A stretch of DNA of 45,274 bases from Terriglobia bacterium. GTDB lineage: Bacteria; Acidobacteriota; Terriglobia; Bryobacterales; Bryobacteraceae. Below, one piece after another: positions 2,158-38,698 of the stretch. The notes beneath the pieces are model-generated. The model saw nothing but the letters and a program-made list of their open reading frames with translations, had not been told where the DNA came from and did not search any database. The stretch spans positions 1 through 45,274 of the forward strand of contig JAIQFN010000047.1 in assembly GCA_020073265.1 (NCBI GenBank), given 5' to 3'. Position 1 is the stretch's first letter; every line of letters starts with the position of its first letter. The position numbers were made by a program, and so were the translations under genes.

Positions 2158-2264
2158 TCCCCTCCCATGATAGAAGAGAAGCGGGACGGAACGAGCATGC
2201 TTCGCCCGGATTTGCCGCCTTCGCCGGTTGAGACAAGCGCCACCCATAGACAACTTGGATTCTT

Positions 2265-2813: not shown

Positions 2814-2881
2814 TCGTGAAGCAGCCCTGAGAGAAGTTCCCGCACCACTCCACTACAGCAATATCCCGAGAGGGTACATAG

Positions 2882-23552: not shown

Positions 23553-24278
23553 TTACGCCTTGCGGATGTCTGCTCTGGCACGCAGCCCGTCCACGAACTG
23601 CTCGATACACGTCTCTTTGCGGCGTTGGATCAGGTGCTCCTCGATCTCGCTCCGAACATCGGTTAGATCGCGCACGCCCTCCGCCTTTCGTTCGTACATC
23701 TTCGCGATGTGAAATCCGAATGGGGAGCGAAAAATGGAGCTTACTTCGCCCGGCTTCATCGAGAAAACGATGTTCTCGAATTCCTGCACCATCTGACCGC
23801 GCTGAAAGAATCCCAGATCCCCGCCCCTTCCCGGGCAGTCGGAGCGCCGATCGGCCACTTCTTCAAAAGGCTTTCCGTCCAGCAACTCTTGTTGGATGGC
23901 TTGGATGGTTTCCAGAGCGCTGCTCTCATCGCTGCGCTCGTCGACGTTCTTTACGATATGGGCGGCGTGCACCATTTCCGGGGCGTAAAAACTATCGCGG
24001 TGCTTGCGGTAGTGCTCCACGACGTCTTTCTTTTTGGGAGCGGCTACCTTCGCAGTCAACTTTGCTACCAGTTCTTCGACGCGCTGGCCGGTCTCTTGCG
24101 CCGCCTGCTGCAGCAGAACTTTTTCGATCACGTTTTCCCTGGCCCATTCCCAGGCGCGCATCTCGATGGCCAGGGGATCGTCGTCGAGATCCGCCTCCAG
24201 CAGGCGCGCCTTCACCATTTGAGCTTCCTGGCGGATCAACGCGTCGTCGACACGCTCGCCATTGACGAGAATCGGCAT
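23553..24278 (-). CDS. Parvulin-type peptidyl-prolyl cis-trans isomerase
   Basis: 241 residues from the ATG at 24278; the open frame continues upstream but only through the sulfatase gene in another frame. Residues 1-95 are a helical SurA_N-like segment ('LEADLDDDPLAIEMRAWEWA'). Residues ~97-197 are the parvulin domain with the expected features: H104-A-A-H107, 'EEVADRRSDCPGRGGDLGFF' (D147, C148), 'VFSMKPGEVSSIFRSPFGFH' (H190). There is no signal peptide, which is unusual because most SurA/PpiD/PrsA relatives act outside the cytosol. The start lies four bases after the sulfatase stop and the stop six bases before the FGE start, so the three are one operon. Because FGE recognises a proline-containing motif in an unfolded or folding sulfatase, a helper role in sulfatase maturation is plausible but inferred. 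Confidence 0.87.
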   Translation of the reverse strand: MPILVNGERVDDALIRQEAQMVKARLLEADLDDDPLAIEMRAWEWARENVIEKVLLQQAAQETGQRVEELVAKLTAKVAAPKKKDVVEHYRKHRDSFYAPEMVHAAHIVKNVDERSDESSALETIQAIQQELLDGKPFEEVADRRSDCPGRGGDLGFFQRGQMVQEFENIVFSMKPGEVSSIFRSPFGFHIAKMYERKAEGVRDLTDVRSEIEEHLIQRRKETCIEQFVDGLRARADIRKA

Positions 24279-24282
24279 GGCC

Positions 24283-25662
24283 TTACGGCTGCACTGGCCT
24301 GGCGTAGGCGCCGGCTGGAAGGCTGGGGATCGACTTTCGCGCTTGAGATTCCGTCCAGGCCTGCTGCACTTGTTCCGGGAAGCCGGGAACGAGCGATTTG
24401 ATCCTGCGTTGGATCTCTTCCACCACCTGTGGATTGTCGGCAGCGACGTCGTAGCTTTCGTCCGGGTCGTTGGCCAGGTTGTAAAGCTCAGGGCGGGCCA
24501 GCGTGAAACTGAAGCGCCCGCCGGGAGGAGCCGGCGCATAGGCCGCGGTGTTGTGTCGCGCGATGTGCAGCTTCCAATTCATCCAGCGCGCGCATTGCAG
24601 GTCCCAGTTGTCGAAGTACAGCAGGACTTCGCGCTCGATGGATTCCTTCTGGCCCGACAGCAGCGGCCAGATATCGATCCCATCCAGCGGCTTGGAGGGC
24701 AGCGCGGCGCCGCACAGCCGGACCACCGTCGGCAGAAGATCGAGCATGGATGCAAGCCCGTTGCACACCCGGCCCTTCGGGATCCTGCCGGGCCAAGCGG
24801 CAATGAACGGCTCGCGCACGCCGCCCTCATAGGTTGTGTTCTTGCGCCCGCGCAGTTTGCCCGGGCTGCCCTGGTACCAGGGCCCGTTGTAGCTGGTGAA
24901 CAGCACCAGCGTGTTCTGCTCCACGCCGTTCTGCTTCAGCGCCCGCCGGATTTCGCCGACGCTCCAGTCGAGTTCCTCCACCACGTCTCCGTACAAGCCT
25001 TCGGGCGACTTGCCGCGAAATCGCTCGGATGCGCCCAGCGGAATGTGTGGAAACGTTTGCGGCAGGTAAAGAAAGAACGGCGAGTCGCGATTTTCGTGGA
25101 TGAACTTGACCGCCTGCTCGGTGTAGCGCTGGGTCAGCGTCTCGAGCTTCGCGGGTTCTTCGATCACCTCGGTGTTGTGCATCAGCACGCGCGGGTTCAT
25201 GTCGTTGCTGTACGGGATGCCGAAGTATTCGTCAAAACCGCGCCGCGTGGGCAGGTACTCGGCCGGCCGCCCCAGGTGCCATTTGCCGATGCACATGGTC
25301 TTGTAGTTCTGAGCCTTGAGCAGGTCCGCCAGAGTGGATTCGTCCAAGCTGAGCCCGTCGCGATCCTGCGGAAAAAAGACTCGCGGCACGCCCACGCGCG
25401 TGGGATACCTTCCGGTCAACAGGGCCGCGCGCGACGGCGAGCAAACCGGATCGGCCGACGTGAAGTTGGTGAAGCGGACGCCTTCGCCGGCCATGCGATC
25501 CAGGTTGGGAGTCGGGATCTTCGAGCCGTAGCAGCCCAAGTCGCCGTAACCGAGGTCGTCGCAAAGAATCACGACGATGTTCGGTTTCCTGGATGGCGCC
25601 GCCAGAAGCTGCGACGCGAGCGCCGCGCCCGTGGAAGCGAGGAAGGATCGTCTATCGATCAT
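24283..25662 (-). CDS. Tat-exported type I sulfatase
   Basis: 459 residues from the ATG at 25662, giving a twin-arginine leader R4-R5-S-F-L ('MIDRRSFLASTGAALASQLL'). The alkaline-phosphatase-fold sulfatase core begins 'KPNIVVILCDDLGYGDLGCY' (D35, D36 metal ligands). The modification motif is C74-S-P-S-R78, followed by the usual 'AALLTGRYPTRVG'. This is the cysteine type, converted to formylglycine by FGE, which then hydrolyses sulfate esters using Ca2+. Further family motifs: 'KTMCIGKWHLG', 'FFLYLPQTFPHIPL', 'TLVLFTSYNGPW'. The usual 'T-S-D-N-G' metal-binding segment reads T-S-Y-N-G here, i.e. a Tyr replaces the conserved Asp, which may affect metal binding. Tat export implies that it folds and is modified in the cytosol, consistent with the co-encoded cytosolic parvulin and FGE. 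It follows the 'PDLQGLW' protein gene by 43 bases. Confidence 0.92.
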   Translation of the reverse strand: MIDRRSFLASTGAALASQLLAAPSRKPNIVVILCDDLGYGDLGCYGSKIPTPNLDRMAGEGVRFTNFTSADPVCSPSRAALLTGRYPTRVGVPRVFFPQDRDGLSLDESTLADLLKAQNYKTMCIGKWHLGRPAEYLPTRRGFDEYFGIPYSNDMNPRVLMHNTEVIEEPAKLETLTQRYTEQAVKFIHENRDSPFFLYLPQTFPHIPLGASERFRGKSPEGLYGDVVEELDWSVGEIRRALKQNGVEQNTLVLFTSYNGPWYQGSPGKLRGRKNTTYEGGVREPFIAAWPGRIPKGRVCNGLASMLDLLPTVVRLCGAALPSKPLDGIDIWPLLSGQKESIEREVLLYFDNWDLQCARWMNWKLHIARHNTAAYAPAPPGGRFSFTLARPELYNLANDPDESYDVAADNPQVVEEIQRRIKSLVPGFPEQVQQAWTESQARKSIPSLPAGAYARPVQP

Positions 25663-25705
25663 GCCTGAGCGTTGTCCTAGCGATCGCAAAGGGTGGCTGG
25701 ACGGG

Positions 25706-26686
25706 CTATTTCTTCTGGGCGCCTTCCGCCTCCATTTTGCGCGCTCCGCCAAGGATGTCTTCGATCGCGTAGTTGCCCTCGTGGCAGGCGTATTCGTAGA
25801 TCGGTCCCGGCGTCGCGACAAACGGAAGTTCCAAGGTCCACGGCCTGCTCCAGGTGGAGGGATCTTCCAGGGTGGCTTTGTAAACCAGGGTGCGCGCGTC
25901 CTCGCGGGTAAAGCGCTCGGTCACCTTCAGGTCCTTCGAGGCGCCGCGAAAATGAGGCTGCTCGTTGAAATTCGTCGTCTCCACCACCAGCGTGTCACCT
26001 TCCCAATGCCCGATGGAATCGCCCAGCCAGTTGCGGACATTCGGAGGCGCGTGCTGCGAGTTCATACGGATGATGCGTACGTCATGGATCATTTCCGAGA
26101 GAATCATGATCGCGTCCGGGGTCTGCACGATCTGGTAGTTGTTGTTGTAAAGCGCCGGGAGCATGGGCGGGCCGGTAGGCGACCCGACCAGGCAGCGCTC
26201 GGTGGCCGGACGTGCCTTCACGTCGTCGGTGCTCGACAATCTCTGCGCGCGGCCGCGTCCGCGGGCTTGCGGCGACATGGGCGGTACTCTGCCATCCGGC
26301 GGATCGACCACCAGGGAGGTTCGCTTCACGCCATCGATGCGCGCCAGTTCGGCGCCCATGTCGTAAAACAGAACGTTGTAGGCGCCGGTCCCCTCCGACC
26401 CCTTGCCCACGTGCAGCGGGCCTTCCGACGTCCCATCCAGCTGCTGCCATGCCGCTGCATCGCTCTGCTCATATTTCTTCGCCTCCGCGTCGGTCAGCGT
26501 CGGCTTGCCGGCAAACACAGCCGGACGTTCCATCGGCGTCCGCGTCGAATTGTTCCAGAGACCCTGCAGATCCGGGTGGCCATCCGCAGTCCGGGGCATC
26601 TTCCAGGCCGTCTTGTTCTGCGCCGGGAGCGTGGCCGCCGCAAAGAGCGCCAGCCCGCCGATTGCCATCAGATTCCGGTAAGCCAT
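25706..26686 (-). CDS. Secreted protein of unknown function ('PDLQGLW' type)
   Basis: 326 residues with a signal peptide (1-22, 'AIGGLALFAAATLPAQ'). The start has GAGGTGAAGG upstream. The mature protein begins 'TADGHPDLQGLWNNSTRTPM', a pattern seen in many uncharacterised acidobacterial and proteobacterial secreted proteins, and continues with 'ERCLVGSPTGPPMLPALYNN', 'IMILSEMIHDVRIIRM', 'WLGDSIGHWEGDTLVVETT' and 'YEYACHEGNYAIEDIL'. The 'GxSxGxWxGDTLVVxT' core is the most constant part of such proteins. No catalytic residues are known and I do not assign an activity; beta-rich content suggests a ligand-binding or hydrolytic periplasmic protein. It is the second gene of the left arm of the TetR locus, between receptor and sulfatase. 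Confidence 0.75.
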   Translation of the reverse strand: MAYRNLMAIGGLALFAAATLPAQNKTAWKMPRTADGHPDLQGLWNNSTRTPMERPAVFAGKPTLTDAEAKKYEQSDAAAWQQLDGTSEGPLHVGKGSEGTGAYNVLFYDMGAELARIDGVKRTSLVVDPPDGRVPPMSPQARGRGRAQRLSSTDDVKARPATERCLVGSPTGPPMLPALYNNNYQIVQTPDAIMILSEMIHDVRIIRMNSQHAPPNVRNWLGDSIGHWEGDTLVVETTNFNEQPHFRGASKDLKVTERFTREDARTLVYKATLEDPSTWSRPWTLELPFVATPGPIYEYACHEGNYAIEDILGGARKMEAEGAQKK

Positions 26687-26733
26687 ACCTTCACCTCAGA
26701 TAGAGCATACCGCTATTCTTGCCCTTGTGCGGG

Positions 26734-26759
26734 GCGGGGTTCCGGCCCGCCGGACCCGC
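26734..26759 (-). other. Intercistronic GC hairpin between receptor and downstream genes
   Basis: TCCGGC (26741-26746) pairs with GCCGGA (26749-26754), and flanking GCGGG pairs with CCCGC across a one- or two-base bulge. It lies in the 218-base gap downstream of the receptor gene and 48 bases before the next gene. No T-run follows on the minus strand, so an mRNA-stabilising or attenuating element is more likely than full termination. Confidence 0.35.
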
Positions 26760-26904
26760 TATGTTTAGCCTTCCGCGCCGATCACCTGCGGGCAGAAGAG
26801 CCGCGTCATAACATCCCGCGAGCCGTCTGCGCAATCGTGGGCATCACGCGATCCCCGGGATTATCCAAATGACGCGAGTACGAGACGGGAGGATCCGGAA
26901 CCCG

Positions 26905-29900
26905 TCAGAAACTCACGCGCGCGGCAAACTGGAAGGACCGCGGTCCGCCGCTACCGAACGCCTGGCCCACACGACCGCTGGGCTGCCCGAAGTTAGGCTG
27001 ATTCAGCACGCTGCTGTAACCGGTCAGGTTCGCGAAGTTGAACAGGTTGAACGCCTCTGCCATGATCGACACTCTCAGACTCTCGCGAATTGGAATGTCG
27101 CGGGAGACACGCAGATCCTGTGCGAGCAATGAGTCGTCTGGCGCGAACGTAGCCGGCAAAACAATCGGATTGATGACCTGATTGAACGGCGTTCTCGGCG
27201 GTACGCTTGAGCTTGTGCCGTTGGCGTTCGGGACATTGATTGGCGCGGCGATGGTGGAGTTAAACTTCGTCACGAGTATGCGGATGTCGTTAGCGCTCAA
27301 GCCGCTGCCAAACTCATTCTGACGTGGCACGCCCGGGAGAAGTTCGTTGCTGATGCCATCGCCGTTGAGGTCGAGGCCGGCGATCAGAGTATTGCCCGGT
27401 GATCCGCTGGCGGTTTGAGAAATCAGCGAAAACGACCAGCCATTCAAGAGCCGCCGCAGCGCCGCCGACGATCCCTTGTAACCGGATGGCATGTAGACCG
27501 CGCTTACGGTGAGCTGCTGCGGCCGGTTCACAATGTTTCCGTTAGCGGAGTCGAAGTTATTATTGGCAACGAATCCAACGAAACCCGTCTCCTGGGCGTA
27601 CACGTACGTCGCGAGCAACTGAAAGCCATTGGCGAATCGCTTGTCCAGCTTGAGGTTTAAGGCCTGGTACCGGGAATTCGCTCCGCTGCCGACAACCGGG
27701 ATTGCTCCGGCGGAACAATTATCGTTGGGATCGAGCGCGAGCGATTGCGCGGTGGTGCATAAGGGGATAACGGGATTGCGCGCAAACGTCACCACGCCCG
27801 TGGTGGGATTTACTGAACTTACCAACGGCCGATTGAACTGATTGCGATCGATTGAATATGCGAAGGCTCCGCTGCCGACGCCGAAGTGCACGAAACGGCG
27901 CATCACATAATCGGCCGAAAGAACCAGGTCCTTGTAGATCTGGCGTTGCACGCCAATGCTGGTGTGCATGCCGTATCCCATGGTTGCTTGGGGGTCGAAA
28001 ATACTGCCGATCCCGCCCTGTTTTACGATCTGAATGCCGCTGACGGACGGGTCTGTGCCATTGCCGATCTTGGACATGATCTGCTGCTCGATGGTCGGAA
28101 GCATGGGCAACAACTGCGCCCCGGTGAAGGTGGTGGGCACACTCACGAAGTTCAGCCCGACCACTTGCCCGGTCACGGCGTAACGGCCGTTGCCCGACGG
28201 GCCCACTAGAGCTCGTTCCTGAAAACGTGGATTGTAATTTCCGGCGTCATGGTAGATACCGGCGCCACCGCGGATGACCGTTTTGGCATCTTTGCCCAGG
28301 CTCCAGGCGAAGCCGAGCGCCGGATCAAAAGCTCTGGTGTCGGGCTGCGGCGGGTTGAGGTCGCCCGCCAAAAGCGGCGCCAAATAGGCCGGGCGCCTTA
28401 AGTCGCTGTTGAACAAATTCGTTTCGTAGGAATAAGCCAAGCCGTAGTTCAGCGTGAAGTTAGGCCGCAATCTCCAGGAATCCTGTGCGAAGAAGCGTAT
28501 GCGATCATTGCGCGAGGCGCTGTTGTAGTTGTACGGACCGGGCAGTTGGGGTGAACCGATCCCCATGGTGAAGGTTTGCAACGGGAGCTGCATAATGTCG
28601 GAGAACGCCGGCGGCGGTCCGCTGGGATTCTTCAGAGTGGCCGGAAGGGCATTGTAGATTGAAGCGAAGGCAGGCCCGGTCAAGTTGGATACGCCCCACA
28701 GCGTGATGATGGCGGGATCATCGTACGCCAAGGTTACCGGGAAGTAGTCGTGCTCCCATTCGCCGCCGAAACGAATCCTGTGCGATCCCTTCTGCCAGGT
28801 GATATTGTCCACCAGTTGGTAGGTCCTCGGGAAGCGTGTGGTGGGCACATTTTGCTGATTTCCGATCTTGAATCTGGCAGCGTCGAAGACGGAGATTTGC
28901 GGTTCGCCCAGCCCGACGCAAGAGACCGGGTTGACGCATTGTGCCGCGCTGGCCGCGCCCAGTACGCCGTAGAAATATCCGAACGAATACCGGGCGTCAT
29001 TCACGATAGCCGGTGATAGCACGCTCACAAGACCAGCCTGAACCTGAAATGCGAGATTGCTGCTGGCCTGCCAGTTGGAGGGCATGAACACGCCAGCGGC
29101 CGGGGGCGCGTAGGAATTGTTGTTATCCAGACTGTAGCGCAGAAACGCTGTGTTTCTCGGATTCAAATTCGCATCCAGCCGCAAATTAAACTCTTTGGCA
29201 TTCAAAGGACTGGGCGAAATAACGTTGAGGCTGTTGAACACCGGACTGTTGTTCTGAACGTCGTATGCCGCCAACTGCTTGTTGTAGTCGTAGTTTGTGA
29301 AGAAGAACAGCTTGTCTTTCTTGATCGGTCCGCCCAGACTGAACCCTGCCTGCTTGCGGGCAAAGTAAGGGTCCAGATTGTTGAGATCGCGCCCTAGGCC
29401 GGGATACGCGGAAAGGTTGTGGTCGCGATAGTAGAAAAATCCGCTGCCATGGTAAGAGTTGGTACCGCGCTTGGAAACGATATTGATGGCCCCGGCCGAG
29501 GTCGTGCTGGTCGACAGATCGAAGTTGAAGGTAGAGATCTGGAATTCCTGGACGGACTCCATCGAGAAGTTCTGCGCCGAACCTCCCGTAATCCGGTCAT
29601 TGACGGTGGCGCCGTCCACCGAGATCCGAGTTTGGCTCGACTGTGCGCCGCCAATGGTGACGCGTACGAATGTATTTCCTAGCGCGCCTGGATTTGAGGA
29701 GGATTGTACCGTAACGCCAGACTGGAGCTCTGCCAGTTCGAGGAAGTTCCTTCCGTTTAGCGGCAGACTGTTCACTTGCCGGCTGCTCACGCTCCCCGCT
29801 ATCGAGTAGTCGGTGGTGTTGATCTGAGGCGCTTCGCTGGTGACTGTCACCGCCTCGTTGGTCTGTCCCACTTGCAAGGTAAAGTTGAGCGATGCATTGT

Positions 29901-30189
29901 CGCCCACCTGCAGCGTCACGGAAGCAATCTCGGTTTTGAATCCCGGCATGGCCGCGCTGACTTCGTATGCCCCCGGCTCGAGGTTCTCCACCTGATATTG
30001 ACCCGCGCTTCGAGTAGTCACGGTGCGCGAAGCGCCGGTCTCTTTGTTTTTGGCCACAACGGTGGCGCCCGGCACGACAGCATTCGCGGAATCAAAGATG
30101 GTGCCCCGCATCGCGGCGGTCGGCGCCTGTCCCATGGCGACGCACGCTGCCAGCATCAACCCCGTAAGTGACCCTTTGATCCGATCCAT
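26905..30189 (-). CDS. Oar-like TonB-dependent receptor (left arm of TetR locus)
   Basis: 1094 residues; ATG at 30189 with AGGAGG five to six bases upstream. Signal peptide 1-22, then a carboxypeptidase-regulatory-like domain at ~25-105 ('MRGTIFDSANAVVPGATVVA', 'YQVENLEPGAYEVSAAMPGF'). The plug is at ~110-230 ('SRQVNSLPLNGRNFLELAEL', 'VSKRGTNSYHGSGFFYYRDH'); the large barrel runs to the C-terminus and ends in 'FAARVSF', an outer-membrane assembly signal. It imports a ligand across the outer membrane using TonB energy; by size it is of the Oar/SusC-like class rather than a siderophore receptor. It is the first gene of the operon leading to the sulfatase and FGE. Its plug closely resembles the receptor of the right arm ('FFARK/RxxGF', 'GGPIKKDKLFFFxNYxY'), so the two are paralogues. 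Confidence 0.9.
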   Translation of the reverse strand: MDRIKGSLTGLMLAACVAMGQAPTAAMRGTIFDSANAVVPGATVVAKNKETGASRTVTTRSAGQYQVENLEPGAYEVSAAMPGFKTEIASVTLQVGDNASLNFTLQVGQTNEAVTVTSEAPQINTTDYSIAGSVSSRQVNSLPLNGRNFLELAELQSGVTVQSSSNPGALGNTFVRVTIGGAQSSQTRISVDGATVNDRITGGSAQNFSMESVQEFQISTFNFDLSTSTTSAGAINIVSKRGTNSYHGSGFFYYRDHNLSAYPGLGRDLNNLDPYFARKQAGFSLGGPIKKDKLFFFTNYDYNKQLAAYDVQNNSPVFNSLNVISPSPLNAKEFNLRLDANLNPRNTAFLRYSLDNNNSYAPPAAGVFMPSNWQASSNLAFQVQAGLVSVLSPAIVNDARYSFGYFYGVLGAASAAQCVNPVSCVGLGEPQISVFDAARFKIGNQQNVPTTRFPRTYQLVDNITWQKGSHRIRFGGEWEHDYFPVTLAYDDPAIITLWGVSNLTGPAFASIYNALPATLKNPSGPPPAFSDIMQLPLQTFTMGIGSPQLPGPYNYNSASRNDRIRFFAQDSWRLRPNFTLNYGLAYSYETNLFNSDLRRPAYLAPLLAGDLNPPQPDTRAFDPALGFAWSLGKDAKTVIRGGAGIYHDAGNYNPRFQERALVGPSGNGRYAVTGQVVGLNFVSVPTTFTGAQLLPMLPTIEQQIMSKIGNGTDPSVSGIQIVKQGGIGSIFDPQATMGYGMHTSIGVQRQIYKDLVLSADYVMRRFVHFGVGSGAFAYSIDRNQFNRPLVSSVNPTTGVVTFARNPVIPLCTTAQSLALDPNDNCSAGAIPVVGSGANSRYQALNLKLDKRFANGFQLLATYVYAQETGFVGFVANNNFDSANGNIVNRPQQLTVSAVYMPSGYKGSSAALRRLLNGWSFSLISQTASGSPGNTLIAGLDLNGDGISNELLPGVPRQNEFGSGLSANDIRILVTKFNSTIAAPINVPNANGTSSSVPPRTPFNQVINPIVLPATFAPDDSLLAQDLRVSRDIPIRESLRVSIMAEAFNLFNFANLTGYSSVLNQPNFGQPSGRVGQAFGSGGPRSFQFAARVSF

Positions 30190-30217: not shown

Positions 30218-30236
30218 ACCGGCCAGCCGGTTGGTA
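30218..30236 (-). promoter_or_regulatory. Operator A (putative TetR site) at the left-arm receptor promoter
   Basis: The minus strand reads TACCAACCGGCTGGCCGGT. Its core ACCGGC-TG-GCCGGT (30218-30231) has perfect 6-bp arms. It matches the site upstream of the right-arm receptor at 17 of 19 positions and starts six bases downstream of the -10 hexamer, where a bound repressor would block RNA polymerase. Confidence 0.6.
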
Positions 30237-30242
30237 ATGAAA

Positions 30243-30271
30243 TTTATATCACAGGCCGCCGGGTGCGTCAA
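30243..30271 (-). promoter_or_regulatory. Sigma70-like promoter of the left-arm receptor operon
   Basis: On the minus strand TTGACG (30266-30271), a 17-base spacer ending in TGTGA, and TATAAA (30243-30248). Both hexamers match consensus at five of six positions, with an extended -10 (TGA before TATAAA). The leader to the ATG is about 45 bases. Confidence 0.65.
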
Positions 30272-30373
30272 TTGCGGGGTGCTTCCGGAGTTAACGACCC
30301 ACCTGGTCCAAGCAAGCCATAGTTCTAGGCGAGCTCTCTCCAGAAACGCCGCTCCCGCCGCGAGCCTCCGGAT

Positions 30374-30402
30374 TTGACGGCAAATTTTGGATTTAGTACA
30401 GT
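30374..30402 (+). promoter_or_regulatory. Sigma70-like promoter of the TetR gene
   Basis: TTGACG (30374-30379), a 17-base spacer, and TACAGT (30397-30402). The -35 is good and the -10 is moderate (four of six). The start codon at 30438 is about 30 bases after the predicted transcription start. Confidence 0.45.
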
Positions 30403-30407
30403 TATCT

Positions 30408-30423
30408 TACCGGGTAGTCGGTA
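30408..30423 (+). promoter_or_regulatory. Operator C (putative autoregulatory TetR site)
   Basis: TACCGGGTAGTCGGTA is a dyad with arms TACCG and CGGTA around six bases. Its 14-base core ACCGGGTAGTCGGT matches operator A at 11 of 14 positions. It covers the predicted transcription start of the TetR gene, the usual position for autorepression. It is more divergent than sites A and B. Confidence 0.45.
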
Positions 30424-30437
30424 GGTTTGACCCATCC

Positions 30438-31049
30438 ATGGCAACCTCTTCGAGCGGCGTTCGTGCCAACACACCCAACGAGGTACGGCTGGTCGAAATC
30501 TACTTCGCGGCTGCGAAGCTCATTCAGGAAAAGGGATTTCAGGCCACTTCCCTGCAAGACATCGCTCGCGAGGTAGGGTTGACCAAGGCGGGATTGTATC
30601 ACTACATTCCCAGCAAAGAGCGGCTGCTCTATGAAATCATGAACTACGCCATGGACCGGGTGGATCGCGACGTGATCGCCCCAGCGCGTGAAATTGAGGA
30701 CGCCGAGCGGCGCCTGGCGGTCATCGCTGAAAATTACGCCAGGCTGGTGGTCGGGAACCAAGAAATCACAATTGTCCTCAATGACATCGGAGGCCTGACT
30801 GGCGCCAAGAAACGTCACGTGAATCAGCGGCAAGACGCCTTCTATCAGTTCGTGAGAGACACGATTCAGGACCTTGAGGAACAGCACAAGACATCCGGCA
30901 TGGATGTCTCTGTGCTGGCGATGAGCTTCTTCGGTGTCATTCGCTGGCTTGCTCACTGGTATCGTTCGAATGGCAAGCTCAGCCGAGAGCGGGTCATCGA
31001 AGAAATCAGGGAGCTAACCGCGTGCAGGATGATGGGCTTGGGCCGATAA
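30438..31049 (+). CDS. TetR/AcrR-family transcriptional regulator
   Basis: 203 residues from ATG 30438. An earlier in-frame start at 30387 would place the promoter and operator inside the gene, so it is rejected. The N-terminal helix-turn-helix is typical: 'LVEIYFAAAKLIQEKGFQA' then 'TSLQDIAREVGLTKAGLYHY' (residues 38-56) and 'IPSKERLLYEIM'. The C-terminal ~140 residues form the helical ligand-binding and dimerisation domain; 'SKERLLYEI' and the following helices resemble the branch that includes KstR-type regulators of lipid or steroid catabolism, but the ligand cannot be deduced. It lies between two divergent receptor operons, each with a similar dyad at its promoter, and has a related dyad in its own promoter. 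It is therefore probably a local, autoregulated repressor of both arms. Confidence 0.9.
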   Translation: MATSSSGVRANTPNEVRLVEIYFAAAKLIQEKGFQATSLQDIAREVGLTKAGLYHYIPSKERLLYEIMNYAMDRVDRDVIAPAREIEDAERRLAVIAENYARLVVGNQEITIVLNDIGGLTGAKKRHVNQRQDAFYQFVRDTIQDLEEQHKTSGMDVSVLAMSFFGVIRWLAHWYRSNGKLSRERVIEEIRELTACRMMGLGR

Positions 31050-31124
31050 GAACGCATCGCGGCCTGTGGCCCGGAATTCCCCTAGCGATTAATTGAGGAC
31101 CAAGCCGGCCTGCGGGCTGGAGCC

Positions 31125-31154
31125 TTGACACGATTAATCCCTGTGATATATGAT
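31125..31154 (+). promoter_or_regulatory. Sigma70-like promoter of the right-arm receptor operon
   Basis: A perfect -35 TTGACA (31125-31130), an 18-base spacer, and TATGAT (31149-31154, five of six). It shares the CTGTGATATA context (31141-31150) with the left-arm receptor promoter. Confidence 0.65.
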
Positions 31155-31155
31155 T

Positions 31156-31174
31156 TACCGACCGGCTGACCGGT
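31156..31174 (+). promoter_or_regulatory. Operator B (putative TetR site) at the right-arm receptor promoter
   Basis: TACCGACCGGCTGACCGGT, with core ACCGG-CTGA-CCGGT (31161-31174). It is 17 of 19 identical to the site at the left-arm receptor promoter and begins one base after the -10, overlapping the expected transcription start. Confidence 0.6.
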
Positions 31175-31199
31175 TTGATCAGCCGAAAGGGGGTATGCC

Positions 31200-34100
31200 T
31201 TGCGCTCCATGGTTCGAACATTCTTCTTCTTAGTTGCGGCCGCACTGCTGGTGCAACTTGTTATGGCTCAAGTTCCCACGGGAACCATCACCGGGGCGGT
31301 GACAGACCAGACTGGCTCGGTGGTCCCTGGCGCGTCGATCACCGTGACCCACAAGGAATCGGGCGAGGTCCGGCGGGCGACCAGCGCGGCGGACGGCTCC
31401 TACTTAGTGGCCGCTCTACCGGCAGGGCTGTACGACGTCAGCGTGGAAGCGCCGGGTTTTCGCACCCTGATTCGCCCGGCGACCGTGGCCACCGGAAGCA
31501 CCGTGAAAGTCGACATCGGTCTGGTGCTCGGCGACACCAAGGATGTCGTCACCGTGGAAGCTGCCTCTGCGCAGATGAACTATGAGAGCCAGAGCGTGCA
31601 GGGCGTGGTTGGCCGTCAACAGATTCAGGGCCTCCCCTTGAACGGGCGCAGCTTTCTCAACCTCGCGCTGCTGGAACCGGGCGTGACCATCACCACCGGC
31701 TCGACCGCGCAATACAATGCTTTGTTCCGCGTTCAGCTGCTCGGCACCAGCGGCGCAGGACAGAGCGGGCTGGCCGGACCGCAACCCGCCATCACCGTGG
31801 ACGGCGCCAGTGTGCGCGATGCATGGACCGGGCAAACCGGCATGAACTTCTCGCAGGAGGTGGTGCAGGAGTTCCAGGTTTCCACCGTGAACTTCGACCT
31901 CTCTACCGGAATCACGGCGGTAGGTGGCGTCAACATCGTCACGCGATCGGGCGGCGACCAATATCACGGCAGCGCCTACTACTTCTTCCGCGATCACAAC
32001 ATCGCCGCTTATCCGGGCTTGCAGCGCAGCAATCTGACCAACGATCCGTTCTTTGCGCGGCGCAATCCCGGCTTCTGGATGGGCGGCCCCATCAAGAAGG
32101 ACAAGCTGTTCTTCTTCTTCAACTACGAATATTTGAATCAAACCTCGGCGGTGGTCTTCCAGGCCAACAATCCGTTGTTCTCGGCTCTCTCCACCGTGGC
32201 GCCCAGTCCGTACACCGGCGCGAATCTGAGTGCGAAGTTCGACTATCACATCAATCCGAACAACACCGCGTTTCTGCGCTACTCGCACGACGGCAATCAA
32301 GCCGTGGGTCCAGCCACGCAGGTGCCGCAACTTCCCTCAGGCTGGCTGCACAACACCAACTGGTCGGATCAAAGCATCCTGGGCGTCACCACGACGTTCA
32401 AGCCGACGCTAGTAAACGATTTCCGCTTCTCTTACGCCTACTGGACGAACCGCAACCTGTTTCCGTCAGCCAGCGAGTGCCCGCCGCCCTGCATCGGGTT
32501 CGACCAGGTCCAGGTCACGGTGCTGAATACCAACATCGTGGTGGGACACACCAACAACGCGCAGCAAGGCCGCGATATACGCCGCTACGACTGGAACGAC
32601 AACGTGACCTGGCAGCTCGGCTCGCATCGCCTGCGCTTTGGCGGCGAGTACGAGATGTCGCCCAACACCGGTTTCTGGGGCTTCTGCAATCCCGGGTGCG
32701 CCATCGTGTACAACCCCACGCAAGGCGCCGCGGTAGGGCTTCCGGTTCCCAAGACCGTGGCTTCTTTCGACGATATCCTGAAGCTGCCGCTGTATCGCAA
32801 CGACTGGGGCGTCGGCGATCCCAGCACGCCGGCTCCCTACCAGGCTGATGAAGCCAGGACCGGCCACCGAATCCACGTCTACATCCAGGACACCTGGAAG
32901 GTCACGTCCAGCCTGACCTTGAATCTCGGACTGGGATACCAGTATGAAGGCAACCTCGCCAACTACGACTTGCAGAAGCCCGCGAGCCTGGCCGCGATCT
33001 ATGGCAACGATCTCAGTCCCACCGACCAGCAGTACAGGAATTTTTCGCCGGCCTTCGGATTCGCCTGGCGAGTCGGCAAGAGCGACAAGACCGTGATCCG
33101 GGGCGGGGCCGGCCTGTTCTACGACACGCAGCTGCTGTGGGAGCACTTCCGCGAGCGATCCGAGATCGGTCCGGTCGGCAACGGGCGCTACCGCGTCCAG
33201 AGTACGTATACACAGAACACGATTGCCGGAATCCCGGGTGTGCCGGTAGGAGCGGCGACGGCGTTCCTGACCGTACCCACGGCCTTCACGCTGGGCAACT
33301 TGATGCAGCAGTACGGCGCGTTGACGGGTCAGTTGAACGGTCTGTTTGCGCCCGGCAAATACACTTATCCACAAGTCACGAATTTCGATGTGGCCAAACA
33401 GGCTCTGGAACTGATCCCGCGAAACTTCCCGGTGCTGTACAGCGAGCATTTCAACATCGGCATCCAGCGCGAGATCGCCAAAGACATGGTGCTGACGGCC
33501 GACTTCGTGTCGCGCCAGTACATGCATACGCTGCTGGGAGGCGGCAACAACGTCGAGATCGACTACAATCACTTCAGTTCAGTGCAAGGGCCGGTGATCC
33601 CCAAGTGCGTCGGCGCGCAACAGTTCGATCCCAGCGCCAAGTGCTCCACGGGCGCGATTACGTTCTGGGATCCGGGCGGGCGCGGAAACTATCGCGGCCT
33701 GCTGGTGAAGCTGAACAAGCGCTTTACCAACCGCTACCAGTTCACGGCGTCTTATGCGCTCGAAAGCCAGGCCGCGGTGGACGTGTTCAGCAACAGCAAC
33801 TGGTTCGCCGGATACGGTCCGTATGGGCCTCGGCATGTATTGAACATCTCCGGTGTGGTGCAGTTGCCCTGGGGCTTTGAGGCCTCGGTGATCTCGTCAA
33901 CCATCAGCGCTTCGCCGGTGGCGCCGTCCATTCCAACCATCGATCTGGACGGGGACGGATCCACGGGCGAGCCGCTACCGGGCGTCGACTACCGGTGCTT
34001 CAATGCAGGCTGCGGCCGCAGCGATCTGGCCAAGGCCGTGAGCGATTTCAACGCCAATTACGCCGGCAAGAAAACCAGCCGCGGCCAGACCATTCCGACT

Positions 34101-34388
34101 CTGGTGCTGCCGCAACAATACAGCCTGGGCAGCACCTTCAACTCGCAGGACCTGCGCGTCAGCAAGACGTTCCGCCTCAAGGAACGTTACCTGTTCAATT
34201 TCTTCGGCGAGTGCTTCAACATTCTCAACGTCGGCAACGTGAGCGGCTTCGCGTTGACTCTGGATACCCAGGCGGCCAATCCCGCCAACCAGATTTTCGC
34301 GTTCGGGCAGCCATCTCAGCGCGTCGGCCAGAACTTCGGTTCGGGCGGTCCGCGCGCGTTCCAGGTCGGCGGGAGGTTCAGCTTCTAA
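31200..34388 (+). CDS. Oar-like TonB-dependent receptor (right arm of TetR locus)
   Basis: 1062 residues counted from TTG 31200, which has AAAGGGGG six bases upstream; an in-frame ATG at 31209 is the alternative and changes only three residues. Signal peptide to ~residue 24 ('FFFLVAAALLVQLVMAQ'), then a carboxypeptidase-regulatory-like domain ('GTITGAVTDQTGSVVPGASI', 'GLYDVSVEAPGF'). Plug segment: 'RQQIQGLPLNGRSFLNLALL' and 'QEVVQEFQVSTVNFDLSTGI'. The barrel ends 'FQVGGRFSF', an outer-membrane assembly signal. It resembles the left-arm receptor across plug and early barrel ('YFFRDHNIAAYPGLQR', 'GGPIKKDKLFFFFNYEY'). The PQQ dehydrogenase, serine hydrolase and hydrolase-fold genes follow with gaps of about 25 bases, forming one operon. 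Ligand unknown; probably related to that of the other arm. Confidence 0.9.
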   Translation: MRSMVRTFFFLVAAALLVQLVMAQVPTGTITGAVTDQTGSVVPGASITVTHKESGEVRRATSAADGSYLVAALPAGLYDVSVEAPGFRTLIRPATVATGSTVKVDIGLVLGDTKDVVTVEAASAQMNYESQSVQGVVGRQQIQGLPLNGRSFLNLALLEPGVTITTGSTAQYNALFRVQLLGTSGAGQSGLAGPQPAITVDGASVRDAWTGQTGMNFSQEVVQEFQVSTVNFDLSTGITAVGGVNIVTRSGGDQYHGSAYYFFRDHNIAAYPGLQRSNLTNDPFFARRNPGFWMGGPIKKDKLFFFFNYEYLNQTSAVVFQANNPLFSALSTVAPSPYTGANLSAKFDYHINPNNTAFLRYSHDGNQAVGPATQVPQLPSGWLHNTNWSDQSILGVTTTFKPTLVNDFRFSYAYWTNRNLFPSASECPPPCIGFDQVQVTVLNTNIVVGHTNNAQQGRDIRRYDWNDNVTWQLGSHRLRFGGEYEMSPNTGFWGFCNPGCAIVYNPTQGAAVGLPVPKTVASFDDILKLPLYRNDWGVGDPSTPAPYQADEARTGHRIHVYIQDTWKVTSSLTLNLGLGYQYEGNLANYDLQKPASLAAIYGNDLSPTDQQYRNFSPAFGFAWRVGKSDKTVIRGGAGLFYDTQLLWEHFRERSEIGPVGNGRYRVQSTYTQNTIAGIPGVPVGAATAFLTVPTAFTLGNLMQQYGALTGQLNGLFAPGKYTYPQVTNFDVAKQALELIPRNFPVLYSEHFNIGIQREIAKDMVLTADFVSRQYMHTLLGGGNNVEIDYNHFSSVQGPVIPKCVGAQQFDPSAKCSTGAITFWDPGGRGNYRGLLVKLNKRFTNRYQFTASYALESQAAVDVFSNSNWFAGYGPYGPRHVLNISGVVQLPWGFEASVISSTISASPVAPSIPTIDLDGDGSTGEPLPGVDYRCFNAGCGRSDLAKAVSDFNANYAGKKTSRGQTIPTLVLPQQYSLGSTFNSQDLRVSKTFRLKERYLFNFFGECFNILNVGNVSGFALTLDTQAANPANQIFAFGQPSQRVGQNFGSGGPRAFQVGGRFSF

Positions 34389-34413: not shown

Positions 34414-36321
34414 ATGAGATGCCGACCTACCGCGCGACAGACCGTCCTGTGGATCATCGCAGTTCTTTGCATCTCAACCGCCGCGGCGCAAAACATTGAC
34501 GAGTGGTTCGCTTACGGCGGCGACAACCGCGCCGCCAAGTATTCGCCGCTCGATCAGATCAATGCCCGGAACGTGCAGCAATTGAAGATCGCCTGGCGCT
34601 GGGCTTCGCCCGATCAGCAACTCCTGGCGGCGCACCAGGATCTTCGGGCCGGCGAGTTCCAGGCCACGCCCATCCTGGTGGCAGGCGTGCTCTACACCAG
34701 CACGGCGATGAGCCAGGTGGCCGCCATCGACCCGGTCACCGGCAAGACAATTTGGATCTTCGACCCTGAGACCTGGCGTGTGAAAATGCCCACCACTAAG
34801 GGCTTCCAGCATCGCGGCGTGGCGTACTGGAGCGATGGCAAGCAGGGCCGGATCCTGATCGCCACTGGCGACAGCCACCTGATCGCCCTGGATGCCAAGA
34901 CCGGGAAGAAGCTTGCCTCGTTCGGCGACAACGGCGTGGTGGACCTTCGTACCGTGGGACTGTTACGTCCGGTAAGTGGACCGCCCGAGTTGTATGGCCA
35001 CACTTCCGCGGTGGTTATCTGCCGGGACGTGCTGATCGTGGGCAGCTACATCAGCGATCGCGCTTTTGACCGTTTCTCGCCGCCTGGCGATGTGCGCGGC
35101 TTCGACGTTCGCACCGGCAAACTGCTGTGGGTTTTCCATACCGTGCCGCAGCAAGGCGAATTCGGCACCGACACCTGGGAGAACGAATCCTGGAAATATA
35201 CTGGCGCCGCCAATGTGTGGGCGCCCATCAGCGCCGACGACCAACTCGGCTACGTCTACCTGCCGGTCAGCACGCCGACCAACAACTTCAGCGGAACAGA
35301 CCGGCCCGGCAGTGGACTTTTCGGCGATAGCCTGGTGTGCCTGAACGCGAAGACCGGTCAGCGAGTCTGGCACTTTCAGTTCGTGCATCACGGGCTTTGG
35401 GATTACGACACGCCGGCAGCGCCGAACCTCGTAGACATCAGCGTGGGCGGCCGCAGAATCAAAGCGGTTGCGCAAGTGACCAAGCAGGGCTTCACTTATG
35501 TCTTCGACCGCGTTACGGGAGCACCCGTGTGGCCGATCGAGGAGCGGCCGGTCCCGCAGTCCAGCCGGCCCGGTGAAAAATCCTGGCCCACCCAGCCGTT
35601 TCCAACCAAGCCTCCAGCGTTTGACTTACAGGGCGTGACCGAAGACCAGCTCATCGATTTTACGCCGGAATTGCGCACCGAGGCTCTCCAGATTCTGAAG
35701 CGATACAAGTATGGGCCGCTGTTTACTCCTCCGGATCCCAAGCTTCCGACCATCTTCATGCCCGGCTGGCTGGGCGGCGCGAACTGGTTCGGCGCGGCCG
35801 TAGATCCCGAGACCGGGATGCTGTACGTGCCGTCGGCAACCGCGCCGCTGGCTTATCCGCTCCGCGGCGGCAACGACAACGAAAATATTGCGGCGGCCGG
35901 CGGTTTCCTGGGCGGCCCTCAGGGACTGCCTTTGTTCAAGCCGCCCTTCTCTCGCGTGACGGCCATCGACCTGAACCGCGGCGAGATCGCCTGGACGGTT
36001 CCACTCGGCGACGGGCCGCGCGATCATCCGGCGCTGAAGGACCTGCATCTGGGGCCGCTCGGAACACCGTATGCGCGAGGCCGGCCACTCCTGACCAAAA
36101 CTTTGCTGTTCGTGGCGGAAACCGACGCTCGGGAACCGCGCGGCCCGTCTACTCTGCATGCCTTCGACAAAAAGACCGGCCACGAAATCTGGCGCATGCC
36201 GGTCACAAACACAGTCATGGACGTGCCCATGACCTATCGCGCCGGAGGTAAGCAGTATATCGTCGTCGGCTGCGGCGCCAGGACTTCAGCCCACGAGCTG
36301 ATCGCATTCAGTTTGCCTTGA
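34414..36321 (+). CDS. Periplasmic PQQ-dependent dehydrogenase (glucose-dehydrogenase-like)
   Basis: 635 residues with a signal peptide (1-25, 'VLWIIAVLCISTAAAQ'). The mature chain starts 'WFAYGGDNRAAKYSPLDQIN', the usual first blade of quinoprotein propellers. Blade motifs include 'LYTSTAMSQVAAIDPVTGKT', 'DVRTGKLLWVFHTVP' and 'LNAKTGQRVWHFQFVHHGLW'. The 'HHGLWDYDTPAAPNL' segment (about residues 324-338) corresponds to the conserved H-H-x-x-W-D-x-D-x-P-x-x-P region near the active site of membrane-glucose-dehydrogenase relatives. Unlike the quinoprotein at 10.9-12.7 kb it has no haem c domain and no N-terminal membrane helices, so it should pass electrons to a separate acceptor. It would oxidise a sugar or alcohol in the periplasm. 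It is the second gene of the right-arm operon, 25 bases after the receptor. Confidence 0.88.
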   Translation: MRCRPTARQTVLWIIAVLCISTAAAQNIDEWFAYGGDNRAAKYSPLDQINARNVQQLKIAWRWASPDQQLLAAHQDLRAGEFQATPILVAGVLYTSTAMSQVAAIDPVTGKTIWIFDPETWRVKMPTTKGFQHRGVAYWSDGKQGRILIATGDSHLIALDAKTGKKLASFGDNGVVDLRTVGLLRPVSGPPELYGHTSAVVICRDVLIVGSYISDRAFDRFSPPGDVRGFDVRTGKLLWVFHTVPQQGEFGTDTWENESWKYTGAANVWAPISADDQLGYVYLPVSTPTNNFSGTDRPGSGLFGDSLVCLNAKTGQRVWHFQFVHHGLWDYDTPAAPNLVDISVGGRRIKAVAQVTKQGFTYVFDRVTGAPVWPIEERPVPQSSRPGEKSWPTQPFPTKPPAFDLQGVTEDQLIDFTPELRTEALQILKRYKYGPLFTPPDPKLPTIFMPGWLGGANWFGAAVDPETGMLYVPSATAPLAYPLRGGNDNENIAAAGGFLGGPQGLPLFKPPFSRVTAIDLNRGEIAWTVPLGDGPRDHPALKDLHLGPLGTPYARGRPLLTKTLLFVAETDAREPRGPSTLHAFDKKTGHEIWRMPVTNTVMDVPMTYRAGGKQYIVVGCGARTSAHELIAFSLP

Positions 36322-36345: not shown

Positions 36346-37539
36346 ATGAGGAAACCGTTACTGACGATTGTCGCCGCAGCAGCGTTTGCCACTTCGCTGC
36401 ACCCCGCCTCGCTGCCCAACTATGACGTAGATCAGAAGGCTGCGTCGCGTTATGATTTCTCCGCGTTGCGCGCGCGGGTACAGAAGGCCGTGGACACGGG
36501 CGAAATTCCGGGCGGCTCCGTGCTCGTAATGCAGCACGGCAAAGTTGTCTTTAAGGAAGCCTTCGGCCTCATCGACATTGAAAACAACAAGCCGTTTCGA
36601 ACCGACTCGGTTTGCGCCATCGCGTCATCCACGAAATGGATCAGCGGCGCTACGCTCATGGCCGCGGTTTCCGAAGGCAAGCTTTCGCTCGACGACCCCA
36701 TCGGTAAGTACTTTCCAGCCTATGCCGACATGCCCGTAAAGGGATCCGCGGAGAAGGGCAGTCCGACGGTCCGCCAGTGCTTCTCTCACACCAACGCGTT
36801 GCCTGAGATTACCGACAACATATTGGTTCGCGATCACAGCGTGCTCGAATCGGCACAACTTCTGGCGAAGACGATCAACACGCTGGACTGGATGCCGGGA
36901 TCCGCATTCCGCTACGGAAACACCGGAATGCAGTTGGTCGGCGGCGCCGTCGCGAAGGTGACGGGCATGGAGTTCCAGGATTACATGCGCGAGAAGATCC
37001 TTGCGCCGTTGGGCATGCGTGATACCAGCTTCAACCCTACGGCCGATCAGCGCCAGCGCAGCGGCGGCATTTACGTGCACAAGCAGGGCGGCGGCTTCCA
37101 AAGAGAAAATCTTCCCGCGCTGCAAGGCAATATTCGCGGCGCACTGGTGGCCGGAGGCTTGCATTCCACGCTGGATGATTATGCGCGCTTCCTCACCATG
37201 ATGCTCAACGACGGCCGATTCAACGGACACCAGGTGCTCCCGGCGAAGGCGGCGCTGGAGACCCAGAAGGACCAGACCGGGGGAGCGCCCATCAAGTCTT
37301 CTCCGTATCGAAATCAGAAAGGCTATGGGCTCGGCGCGGCGGTGATGGGCGTGGATGCCTCGGGCAAGCCAATCTACATCGGCGATGGCGGCGCCTTCGG
37401 CACCTACGGCTGGATCGACCGCGATCAGGAACTGATCGGCGTATTCTTCACGCAGAACAGGCTGCGCGATATCTACAACCTGTCCATGGTCGAGATTCGG
37501 GACTTGGTTCGCGCCGCCGCCGACAACGCCAAACACTGA
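36346..37539 (+). CDS. Serine hydrolase of the class C beta-lactamase/esterase family
   Basis: 397 residues; RBS AAGGAAG before the ATG. Signal peptide 1-21. The catalytic motifs of the beta-lactamase-like fold are present: S94-S-T-K97 ('CAIASSTKWISGATLM'), Y190-G-N192 ('FRYGNTGMQLVGG') and a C-terminal 'GDGGAFGTYGW' that replaces the K-T-G box of true beta-lactamases, as in esterases and D-amino-peptidases of this family (EstB, DAP). The general acid/base set S94, K97 and Y190 is complete. It is therefore an exported esterase, amidase or peptidase rather than an antibiotic-resistance enzyme. It sits 24 bases after the PQQ dehydrogenase gene in the right-arm operon and may release an ester-linked group from the imported substrate (inference). 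Confidence 0.87.
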   Translation: MRKPLLTIVAAAAFATSLHPASLPNYDVDQKAASRYDFSALRARVQKAVDTGEIPGGSVLVMQHGKVVFKEAFGLIDIENNKPFRTDSVCAIASSTKWISGATLMAAVSEGKLSLDDPIGKYFPAYADMPVKGSAEKGSPTVRQCFSHTNALPEITDNILVRDHSVLESAQLLAKTINTLDWMPGSAFRYGNTGMQLVGGAVAKVTGMEFQDYMREKILAPLGMRDTSFNPTADQRQRSGGIYVHKQGGGFQRENLPALQGNIRGALVAGGLHSTLDDYARFLTMMLNDGRFNGHQVLPAKAALETQKDQTGGAPIKSSPYRNQKGYGLGAAVMGVDASGKPIYIGDGGAFGTYGWIDRDQELIGVFFTQNRLRDIYNLSMVEIRDLVRAAADNAKH

Positions 37540-37561
37540 CAGGACGATGAGGAATTCCCAG

Positions 37562-38698
37562 ATGAAACCAACGCTGCTGGTTGTCGCATGCCTGTGCTCT
37601 GCGCTCGGTCAGGCGCAGACGCGTCCGCAAGGTCCGGTGAGCGAATCCGGCGTAATCAACGGCGCCCGCTTTCGCATCGACATTCCGGCCAATTGGAATG
37701 GAGGCCTGGTTCTCTGGGCCCACGGCTACAGCCCGCCCGAGACGCCTTATCGCATCGCAGGCGAGGAAGGCGTTCGCAATGCCGGCGCGCAATTGATTCC
37801 CGTCCTGGGTGCGCAGGGTTATGCGTTGGCCCAGTCGGCATATAGCGTGCAAGGGCTCTCGATCCGCGAAGGCGTGCTGGAGACCGAGGCGCTGCGCCAG
37901 TATTTCGTGCACAAATACGGCAAAACGTATCCCACCATATTTGCGGGCGCGCACGGCGGCGGGTTGATTACTTATGCCGCGATTGAACGGTTTCCCGAAT
38001 CTTACGATGGCGCGATCGCTTTCGGCGGTATCCCTCTGCCCGAGCTGGAGTGGGTCAAGGAGCGTATGTTCGACATGCGCCTCTTGTTCGACTACTATTT
38101 CCCAGGCTTGCCGGGAAGCGTCGTTGATTTCCCCGATGACGAGACCTGGGCCAGCGTCCGCGTGCAGGCCAAGAAGCTGGTGGACGCACACCCCGAGCGC
38201 GCCAAGACTCTGCTACGGATGTACAATCTGCGCAACACCGACGAACTGTGGCGTTGCATGGGTCTCTACACTTCGATACTGAAAGACCTCAACCGCAATC
38301 GCGCGCATGGCAACGCCTTCGACAACCGCAATACCATCTATCGCGGCAGCGATGACGACGCCAAGCTCAACCGCGAGGTTCCACGTTATAAGAGCGATCC
38401 GAAGGCAGTGGAGTATATGCGCCAGTGGGCCACGCCCACCTGCCAGATATCGTCTCCGCTGCTGGCGATCAACAGCTTGTTCGATCCCGTGGTTCCGTCG
38501 CAGGATACTCACTACTACGACGAGGCATGCAATCGGGCTGGCAAGACGGATCTGTTTGTCCAGATGTGGATGGATATGAAGGGCGAGTCCCCCACACCGA
38601 GCGCGGAAGGTTTTGCGCTGATTTTCAAAACGATGACCGACTGGATACTGAAGAGCAAGCGGCCCGCAGGCGGAGAACTAACCGTGGGGGTCAAGTGA
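37562..38698 (+). CDS. Exported alpha/beta-hydrolase-fold protein lacking the usual nucleophile
   Basis: 378 residues from the ATG at 37562 (GAGG nine bases upstream); an ATG at 37547 would add five residues. Signal peptide 1-19 ('TLLVVACLCSALGQAQ'). The fold reads clearly: 'WNGGLVLWAHGYSPP' (strand 3 and oxyanion loop), 'YALAQSAYSVQGLSIREGV', the elbow 'YPTIFAGAHGGGLITYAAIE', 'FPESYDGAIAFGG' and the acid strand 'LLAINSLFDPVVP' (D308). At the nucleophile elbow the expected G-x-S-x-G is G129-A-H131-G-G133: histidine stands where serine should be. Near the C-terminus the expected G-H-C-x-F-T segment reads 'KGESPTPSAEGF', so the catalytic histidine also seems missing. It is probably a non-catalytic binding protein, or an enzyme with a different mechanism. 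Last gene of the right-arm operon. Confidence 0.75.
   Translation: MKPTLLVVACLCSALGQAQTRPQGPVSESGVINGARFRIDIPANWNGGLVLWAHGYSPPETPYRIAGEEGVRNAGAQLIPVLGAQGYALAQSAYSVQGLSIREGVLETEALRQYFVHKYGKTYPTIFAGAHGGGLITYAAIERFPESYDGAIAFGGIPLPELEWVKERMFDMRLLFDYYFPGLPGSVVDFPDDETWASVRVQAKKLVDAHPERAKTLLRMYNLRNTDELWRCMGLYTSILKDLNRNRAHGNAFDNRNTIYRGSDDDAKLNREVPRYKSDPKAVEYMRQWATPTCQISSPLLAINSLFDPVVPSQDTHYYDEACNRAGKTDLFVQMWMDMKGESPTPSAEGFALIFKTMTDWILKSKRPAGGELTVGVK

Follow-up and report, generated by a model that had tools for sequence, protein, structure and literature searches.

Acidobacteriota genomes encode large sets of Oar-like outer-membrane receptors, and for most of these we know of no established substrate. 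The window studied here (the whole stretch of DNA analysed, 45,274 nucleotides from a soil-type bacterium) raises the question of whether two such receptors, transcribed divergently and 42% identical to each other, are controlled by the TetR-family regulator encoded between them. An initial annotation had described related dyads at the three promoters of this locus and had predicted a small regulon comprising the TetR gene and both receptor operons. The genes, promoters and dyads concerned are the following, with ranks from the held-out matrix described below:

30438..31049, plus strand: TetR-family repressor P0001, 203 aa, with TetR_N and TetR_C_24 domains
26905..30189, minus strand: Oar-like outer-membrane receptor 1 (P0002, 1094 aa), with OMP_b-brl_4 and CarboxypepD_reg domains
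31200..34388, plus strand: Oar-like outer-membrane receptor 2 (P0003, 1062 aa), with CarboxypepD_reg and OMP_b-brl_4 domains
30243..30271, minus strand: receptor-1 operon promoter, TTGACG (30266-30271), 17 bases, TATAAA (30243-30248), read from the sequence
31125..31154, plus strand: receptor-2 operon promoter, TTGACA, 18 bases, TATGAT, read from the sequence and the promoter listing
30374..30402, plus strand: TetR gene promoter, TTGACG, 17 bases, TACAGT, read from the sequence and the promoter listing
30218..30236, minus strand: putative operator at the receptor-1 promoter, TACCAACCGGCTGGCCGGT, 6 bases past the -10 box; rank 1 in the window
31156..31174, plus strand: putative operator at the receptor-2 promoter, TACCGACCGGCTGACCGGT, 1 base past the -10 box; rank 5, in the register 31160-31175
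30408..30423, plus strand: putative operator in the promoter of the TetR gene itself, TACCGGGTAGTCGGTA, covering the start of transcription as predicted; rank 3

Both receptors combine a CarboxypepD_reg N-terminal domain with an OMP_b-brl_4 barrel. Neither the Pfam plug PF07715 nor the TonB_dep_Rec barrel PF00593 matched P0002 or P0003 at 1e-3, and we therefore call them Oar-like outer-membrane receptors rather than TonB-dependent ones. The window encodes one more Oar-like receptor, the third (40339-43455, minus strand); it matches PF00593, and no dyad lies near it among the window matches of the 19-base pattern discussed below.

The -35 and -10 boxes reported for the three promoters are all present, at spacings of 17-18 bases, and the receptor dyads do lie just downstream of the -10 boxes. 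The gaps between -10 box and dyad are 6 bases for receptor 1, 1 for receptor 2 and 5 for the TetR gene, which places the dyads in the expected transcription-start region. The receptor-1 promoter is absent from the automatic listing because the rule applied there demands T as the last base of the -10 box; promoter-like sites are not enriched there overall (5 versus 4.8 in shuffled sequences). The third dyad exists as described, but the overlap with the TetR coding start that had been attributed to it does not hold for the ATG at 30438: the dyad spans positions -30 to -15, ends 14 bases before this codon and would overlap the coding start only if the upstream TTG at 30387 were used. It is the sole exact match to TACCG-N6-CGGTA in the window. 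With one mismatch there are three matches (0.74 expected), a number reached in 2 of 100 shuffles, and on its own the third dyad is not exceptional.

The 19-mer TACC[A/G]ACCGGCTG[G/A]CCGGT occurs at 30218-30236 (minus strand) and 31156-31174 (plus strand), and a direct check of the sequence confirmed both the coordinates and the identity of 17 out of 19 bases. The dyad within it has to be redrawn, being ACCGGCTG[G/A]CCGGT (ACCGG-N4-CCGGT), with an extra TACC half-site preceding it. When up to three mismatches were allowed, the window held two matches against 0.07 expected, and none of 100 shuffles reached two; chance does not account for the pair, bearing in mind that the two receptor sites themselves supplied the pattern. 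A genome-wide search, proposed in the initial annotation as a check, was run with a 20-base form of the pattern on the 6.41-Mb genome and gave no exact match beyond the two window sites. Four more matches were found at 2-3 mismatches, compared with two for the reversed control pattern, and all four fall within open frames of at least 100 aa. As there is no further convincing site in this genome, the regulon looks local.

The two receptor sites could be alike simply through duplication of one receptor-plus-promoter unit, the dyads having no regulator at all. The receptors are paralogous, and their promoters also have CCTGTGATATA in common. However, promoter DNA free of constraint should have drifted apart between paralogues whose proteins are 42% identical, as it has in most other pairs: among 703 pairs formed by 38 non-redundant 180-base receptor promoters (from 45 full-flank loci out of 58), the best 19-base match was only 12 or 13 in 543 pairs. 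The best ungapped match between the window receptor promoters is 17 out of 19, a value reached or exceeded by five of the 703 pairs, the window pair included, and one of the four others joins two genomes of a single genus. A duplication also leaves aside that the TetR promoter has a related dyad and that TetR loci elsewhere carry the motif, and we regard it as very improbable.

P0001 contains a TetR_N helix-turn-helix domain (PF00440, 4.5e-14) and a TetR_C_24 ligand/dimer domain (PF17932, 1.8e-17). Its profile matched, in this order, AibR (5k7f group), 3dcf and PfmR (3vpr) in the PDB. AibR of Myxococcus xanthus (5k7f/5k7h/5k7z) is the best match, at 1.2e-51 by profile and 9.7e-30 by P0001 alone, and PfmR (TTHB023) of Thermus thermophilus HB8, a TetR-family protein like P0001, is related at 4.2e-33 by profile. 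Homologues at 1e-30 were present in 39 out of 396 genomes of a phylum sample, own genome counted. The genus sample of five genomes gave matches at 1e-20 in two, that of the window itself and another with 41% identity, and contained no close orthologue of P0001; no syntenic orthologous locus was found for comparison. P0001 is 39-51% identical to its closest relatives, the nearest being that of locus L049 (51%), and the own genome encodes a paralogue at 39% identity (G000:C73:20669). In a phylogenetic tree, some rows of which are long branches, P0001 pairs with L049, from a Pyrinomonadaceae MAG (support 98/83), and less firmly with L107, from a Bryobacteraceae MAG (94/75). It stands apart from an eight-row clade holding its own paralogue and proteins from G049, G067, G093 and G108. 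This patchy distribution may reflect horizontal acquisition. On contig G049:C287 (loci L046 and L060), roughly 4 kb separates two near-identical TetR copies; AACCGAACGGTCGGTT stands at the promoter of one copy itself, and the second copy diverges from a receptor gene.

The lack of conservation at related loci had been put forward as the result that would count against these dyads, and conservation is what we observed. A TACCGANCGGTCGGTA-like dyad was located upstream of the TetR gene in 35 of the 54 homologous TetR loci scanned, within the 320 bases that precede the TetR match; these are drawn from 67 loci, with L101, L102, L104-L106 and L108-L115 left out. A 16-base dyad agreeing with TACCGACCGGTCGGTA at 12 or more positions was found in those 35 loci versus 16 of 429 control windows taken from these loci, and one agreeing at 14 or more in 24 loci versus none of the 429; because part of these loci had supplied the consensus, the meaningful part is the contrast with the controls, not the score. 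The other 19 loci score below 12 out of 16. In many of the dyad-bearing loci, a -10-like box closely precedes the dyad. The PfmR operator consensus, TACCGACCGNTNGGTN, as given in PMC7022988, is the same motif. At L049, TTGACA...AACCGACCAGCCAGCCGGTCGGTT stands ahead of a TetR-receptor pair; the reverse complement of its dyad is AACCGACCGGCTGGCTGGTCGGTT, and the core ACCGACCGGCTGGC is common to L049 and the window.

A matrix built from 30 sites of relatives, with the window held out, was used to rank about 45,000 window positions. The window sites came first (30217, score 13.0), third (30408, 9.1) and fifth (31160, 7.9), and the second-ranked position lies inside the PQQ-dehydrogenase gene. In 60 simulated 45-kb sequences, the best score averaged 10.1 and reached 18.7 at most. 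Single window sites are thus unexceptional, whereas the placement of three of the top five on the three promoters is exceptional. Profile R2, trained on 26 TetR-promoter sites with the window excluded, gave overlapping window matches of 9.0, 6.3 and 5.0 bits (ranks 1, 3 and 8; E 0.12, 0.96 and 2.4) and no match in the own genome (G000) at E 0.3. There, the consensus TACCGRMCGGTCGGTA with up to two mismatches gave six matches at five places, all with two mismatches, against 31 for the reversed control. The dyad at 30408-30423 agrees by eye with 12 of the 16 bases of TACCGACCGGTCGGTA, which gives the TetR gene an operator-like site at its own promoter, weak by profile R2. Being weak by the family profile, the window sites appear to be a diverged version of the motif, as might be expected with P0001 39-51% identical to its closest relatives.

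Sequence comparison thus gives good support to the dyads being operators of the TetR protein encoded between the receptors. Two parts of the earlier proposal are likewise well supported by it: TetR autoregulation and the membership of the two receptor operons in one small regulon. Another repressor, for example the 39% identical paralogue, might be the one that uses these operators, with the local TetR acting elsewhere or additionally. TetR_C_24 relatives use closely similar sites and cross-talk is therefore possible, but a matching site stands at the promoter of the local TetR gene itself, which lies between both targets, and the dyad pattern search found none upstream of the paralogue. We consider control by such another repressor unlikely.

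Assignment of the dyads to P0001 or its relatives raises the question of whether they also mark receptors in other genomes. The promoter-plus-dyad layout also precedes receptors in a further four genomes of the family, namely G049, G067, G108, where the receptor lies at a contig end and was identified from its first codons only, and G034, which belongs to the genus of the window and has the layout twice. In the promoter alignment, TTGACA...TGATATATGATTTACCGACCGGCTGACCGGTT at window receptor 2 corresponds to TTGACA...TGATATATCTTTCCACCGAACGGTCGGTT in G067, with G108 and G049 alike, and to TTGACA...TATATGATCTCCCTACCGGTCGATCGGTT in both G034 copies. The dyad as a general feature of the receptor family was rejected: among 58 receptor-homologue loci, partly overlapping and a few of them at contig ends with the wrong upstream stretch (e.g. 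L154, L163), only the two window receptors scored above 7 (the next scored 6.8) and the other 56 were without the dyad. These 58 loci are a subset of the receptor matches, and the dyad-bearing G067:C291 and G034:C73 lie outside it.

Profile R1, which had the window sites in its training set, was applied to 14 genomes chosen partly for their TetRs, scoring 150 of the 1,865-5,570 first-look candidates per genome. The scored candidates yielded at least 71 matches at E <=3 and at least 28 distinct places with 14 bits or more, at least 26 of them outside the training set by hand count. Six of these 26 places lie directly before an Oar-like receptor (G208:C4, G093:C256, G093:C172, G067:C291, G034:C73:139978 and G108:C679), and G488:C68 precedes a TetR-receptor pair. 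Some of the other 19 stand before a TetR gene (G208:C13:107050), thiolases (G208:C13:172306, G108:C647), ETF/MDR genes (G208:C13:92361), hydrolases (G093:C105, G108:C83:39629) or a TPP enzyme (G433:C90), and the rest are without a labelled gene or within open frames (G067:C597:1310 among those judged). Even five of 26 places before receptors would have a probability of about 5.5e-6, assuming that about 1% of the genome lies there, a rough share within 300 bases before such a receptor taken from candidate counts. Places with 14 bits or more occurred in eight of the 14 genomes, seven with a TetR of this clade and G034 with a double TetR_C_24 protein. Among the scored candidates there were none in G002, G003, G028, G121 and G140, five genomes in which the search for a clade TetR gave no match, or in G000, where the two matches of the genome scored 13.1 and 12.9 bits. 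The second receptor site of G034 scored 13.2 bits, and a 12.2-bit site in G093:C378 lies 177 bases before the receptor frame, far from its promoter. A claim of a family-wide regulon was dropped: across 121 family genomes, profile R2 at E <=0.3 gave 25 matches at 21 places, many of them inside open frames, no more than the roughly 36 matches allowed by chance. Our reading therefore draws solely on places adjacent to receptor or TetR genes.

The double TetR_C_24 protein of G034 (L240:14399-15694) is encoded near a tandem pair of Oar-like receptors, both of which have a dyad immediately past the -10 box, and it presumably binds those dyads. Unlike P0001, to which it is 26% identical, it has two TetR units in a 431-aa chain. 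The tandem receptor promoters of this locus (L240, G034:C73:128500-146500) are near-identical and lie near 7875-7945 and 11480-11545. The 12-Mb genome G108, which has a clade TetR, contains at least 13 distinct operator-like places at E <=3, at least nine of them with 14 bits or more, and possibly a larger regulon. Among the loci concerned (L229, L230, L236, L238, L239, L248, L271), some have genes for a phosphotriesterase, an alpha/beta hydrolase, PQQ/cytochrome c proteins or thiolases close by.

Inverted repeats at or just past the predicted transcription start could also work as hairpins at the 5' end of the mRNA, affecting stability or attenuation, instead of as operators. The dyad does not follow the -10 box in some loci (L232, L245, L233), and in G093:C256 (L232) and G208:C4 (L245) it lies just upstream of the receptor's -35 box, so not every site can act alike. 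A dyad in that position argues against a hairpin, with the caveat that the one at L232 could instead serve a divergent frame. The dyad sequence also matches a known TetR operator, and we find a role as mRNA hairpins hardly credible.

If the dyads are operators of P0001, control may extend to the enzymes encoded behind the receptors, in two arms:

25706..26686, minus strand: P0005, a secreted-looking protein of 326 aa without Pfam match, second gene of arm 1
24283..25662, minus strand: sulfatase with a C-S-P-S-R signature (Cys-type); open frame to 25821, ATG chosen by eye
23553..24278, minus strand: PPIC-type peptidyl-prolyl isomerase; open frame to 24539, start chosen by eye
22554..23546, minus strand: FGE-sulfatase domain protein (Pfam)
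34414..36321, plus strand: PQQ-dependent dehydrogenase (PF01011), 25 bases past receptor 2
36346..37539, plus strand: beta-lactamase-fold serine hydrolase (PF00144)
37547..38698, plus strand: weakly DUF6351/tannase-like protein (18.8 bits, under the curated cut-off of 22.4)

The gaps in arm 2, from receptor 2 through dehydrogenase and hydrolase to the DUF6351-like protein, are 25, 24 and 7 bases. In arm 1, receptor 1 and P0005 are separated by 218 bases, with no terminator-like site listed on the receptor-1 strand within this gap, and P0005 and the sulfatase by 43 bases if the sulfatase ATG is at 25662. A frame at 25577-26872 (plus strand) was dismissed as spurious: it is without Pfam match and lies opposite P0005, itself Pfam-less but secreted-looking. 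Both arms have operon-like spacing, from which their co-transcription is likely. Co-control of the arms, as initially annotated, is thus made likely by spacing, but it finds no parallel in the 58 receptor loci, where the PQQ dehydrogenase, P0005, sulfatase, FGE protein, two hydrolases and TetR of the window gave no match at 1e-8 beyond the window copies. As far as the flank of about 1.5 kb past the receptor shows, the arms do not appear to be a conserved module.

We consider it very probable that P0001 binds the three dyads and represses its own gene and the two divergent Oar-like receptor operons in a ligand-responsive manner. As a member of the TetR_C_24 clade, kin of PfmR and AibR and using TACCGANCGGTCGGTA operators in the diverged form of the window, P0001 (30438-31049) would sit as a dimer on three ACCG-type dyads or, at the longer receptor sites, alternatively as two overlapping dimers. 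Bound P0001 would obstruct RNA polymerase just past the -10 box of its own and both receptor promoters. Its DNA affinity would shift in response to a small ligand, for which a CoA thioester derived from the imported substrate is the likeliest candidate, and expression of the receptors and the enzymes behind them would thereby change; one signal molecule would then control both operons.

A CoA thioester is our best guess for this ligand, by analogy, because relatives of P0001 often lie beside acyl-CoA catabolic genes and AibR responds to isovaleryl-CoA. Of 49 homologues, sought with a few query proteins and lying on contigs several of which are short, 15 have an acyl-CoA dehydrogenase within 5 kb, 11 a zinc/MDR dehydrogenase, nine an Oar-like receptor, five an AMP ligase and three an SDR. 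No acyl-CoA gene was seen in the window arms. As described in PMC6018408, AibR places one dimer on DNA, has a CoA-thioester ligand and represses in its ligand-bound form, the ligand being needed for repression; it differs from the window system in regulating isovaleryl-CoA synthesis. The initial annotation had the signal molecule switching the genes on; with AibR, the best solved relative, repressing when ligand-bound, the ligand effect on P0001 may have either sign. Deletion of PfmR raises expression of the genes of its own operon, and the portion of PMC7022988 at hand ties PfmR to phenylacetate and fatty-acid genes of a thermophile, with no mention there of an outer-membrane receptor; the window receptor sites are diverged and longer than those of PfmR. 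No TetR control of TonB-dependent or Oar-like receptors is described in the accessible portions of the open-licence PMC literature on Acidobacteria, Acidobacteriota and Solibacter or in those of PMC9736018.

The locus is likely a local, autoregulated TetR regulon, a new instance of an ordinary mechanism, and it predicts a defined regulon of two arms. The loose first-look candidates for P0003, numbering 94 in G000 and as many as 639 in one of the listed genomes, are not receptor counts but fit the large receptor sets of Acidobacteriota. The wider pattern of interest is that some receptors are tagged with PfmR-type operators in genomes holding such TetRs. That a CoA-thioester-responsive TetR_C_24 clade controls selected Oar-like receptors together with acyl-CoA catabolism across Acidobacteriota is a tentative and rather doubtful extension. 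If true, lipid-like, aromatic or ester substrates would cross the outer membrane through those receptors, and the operator, readable from the genome, would serve as a tag linking particular Oar-like receptors to pathways. Where a conserved operator ties particular receptors to a repressor and enzymes, the substrate of the receptor becomes a testable question.
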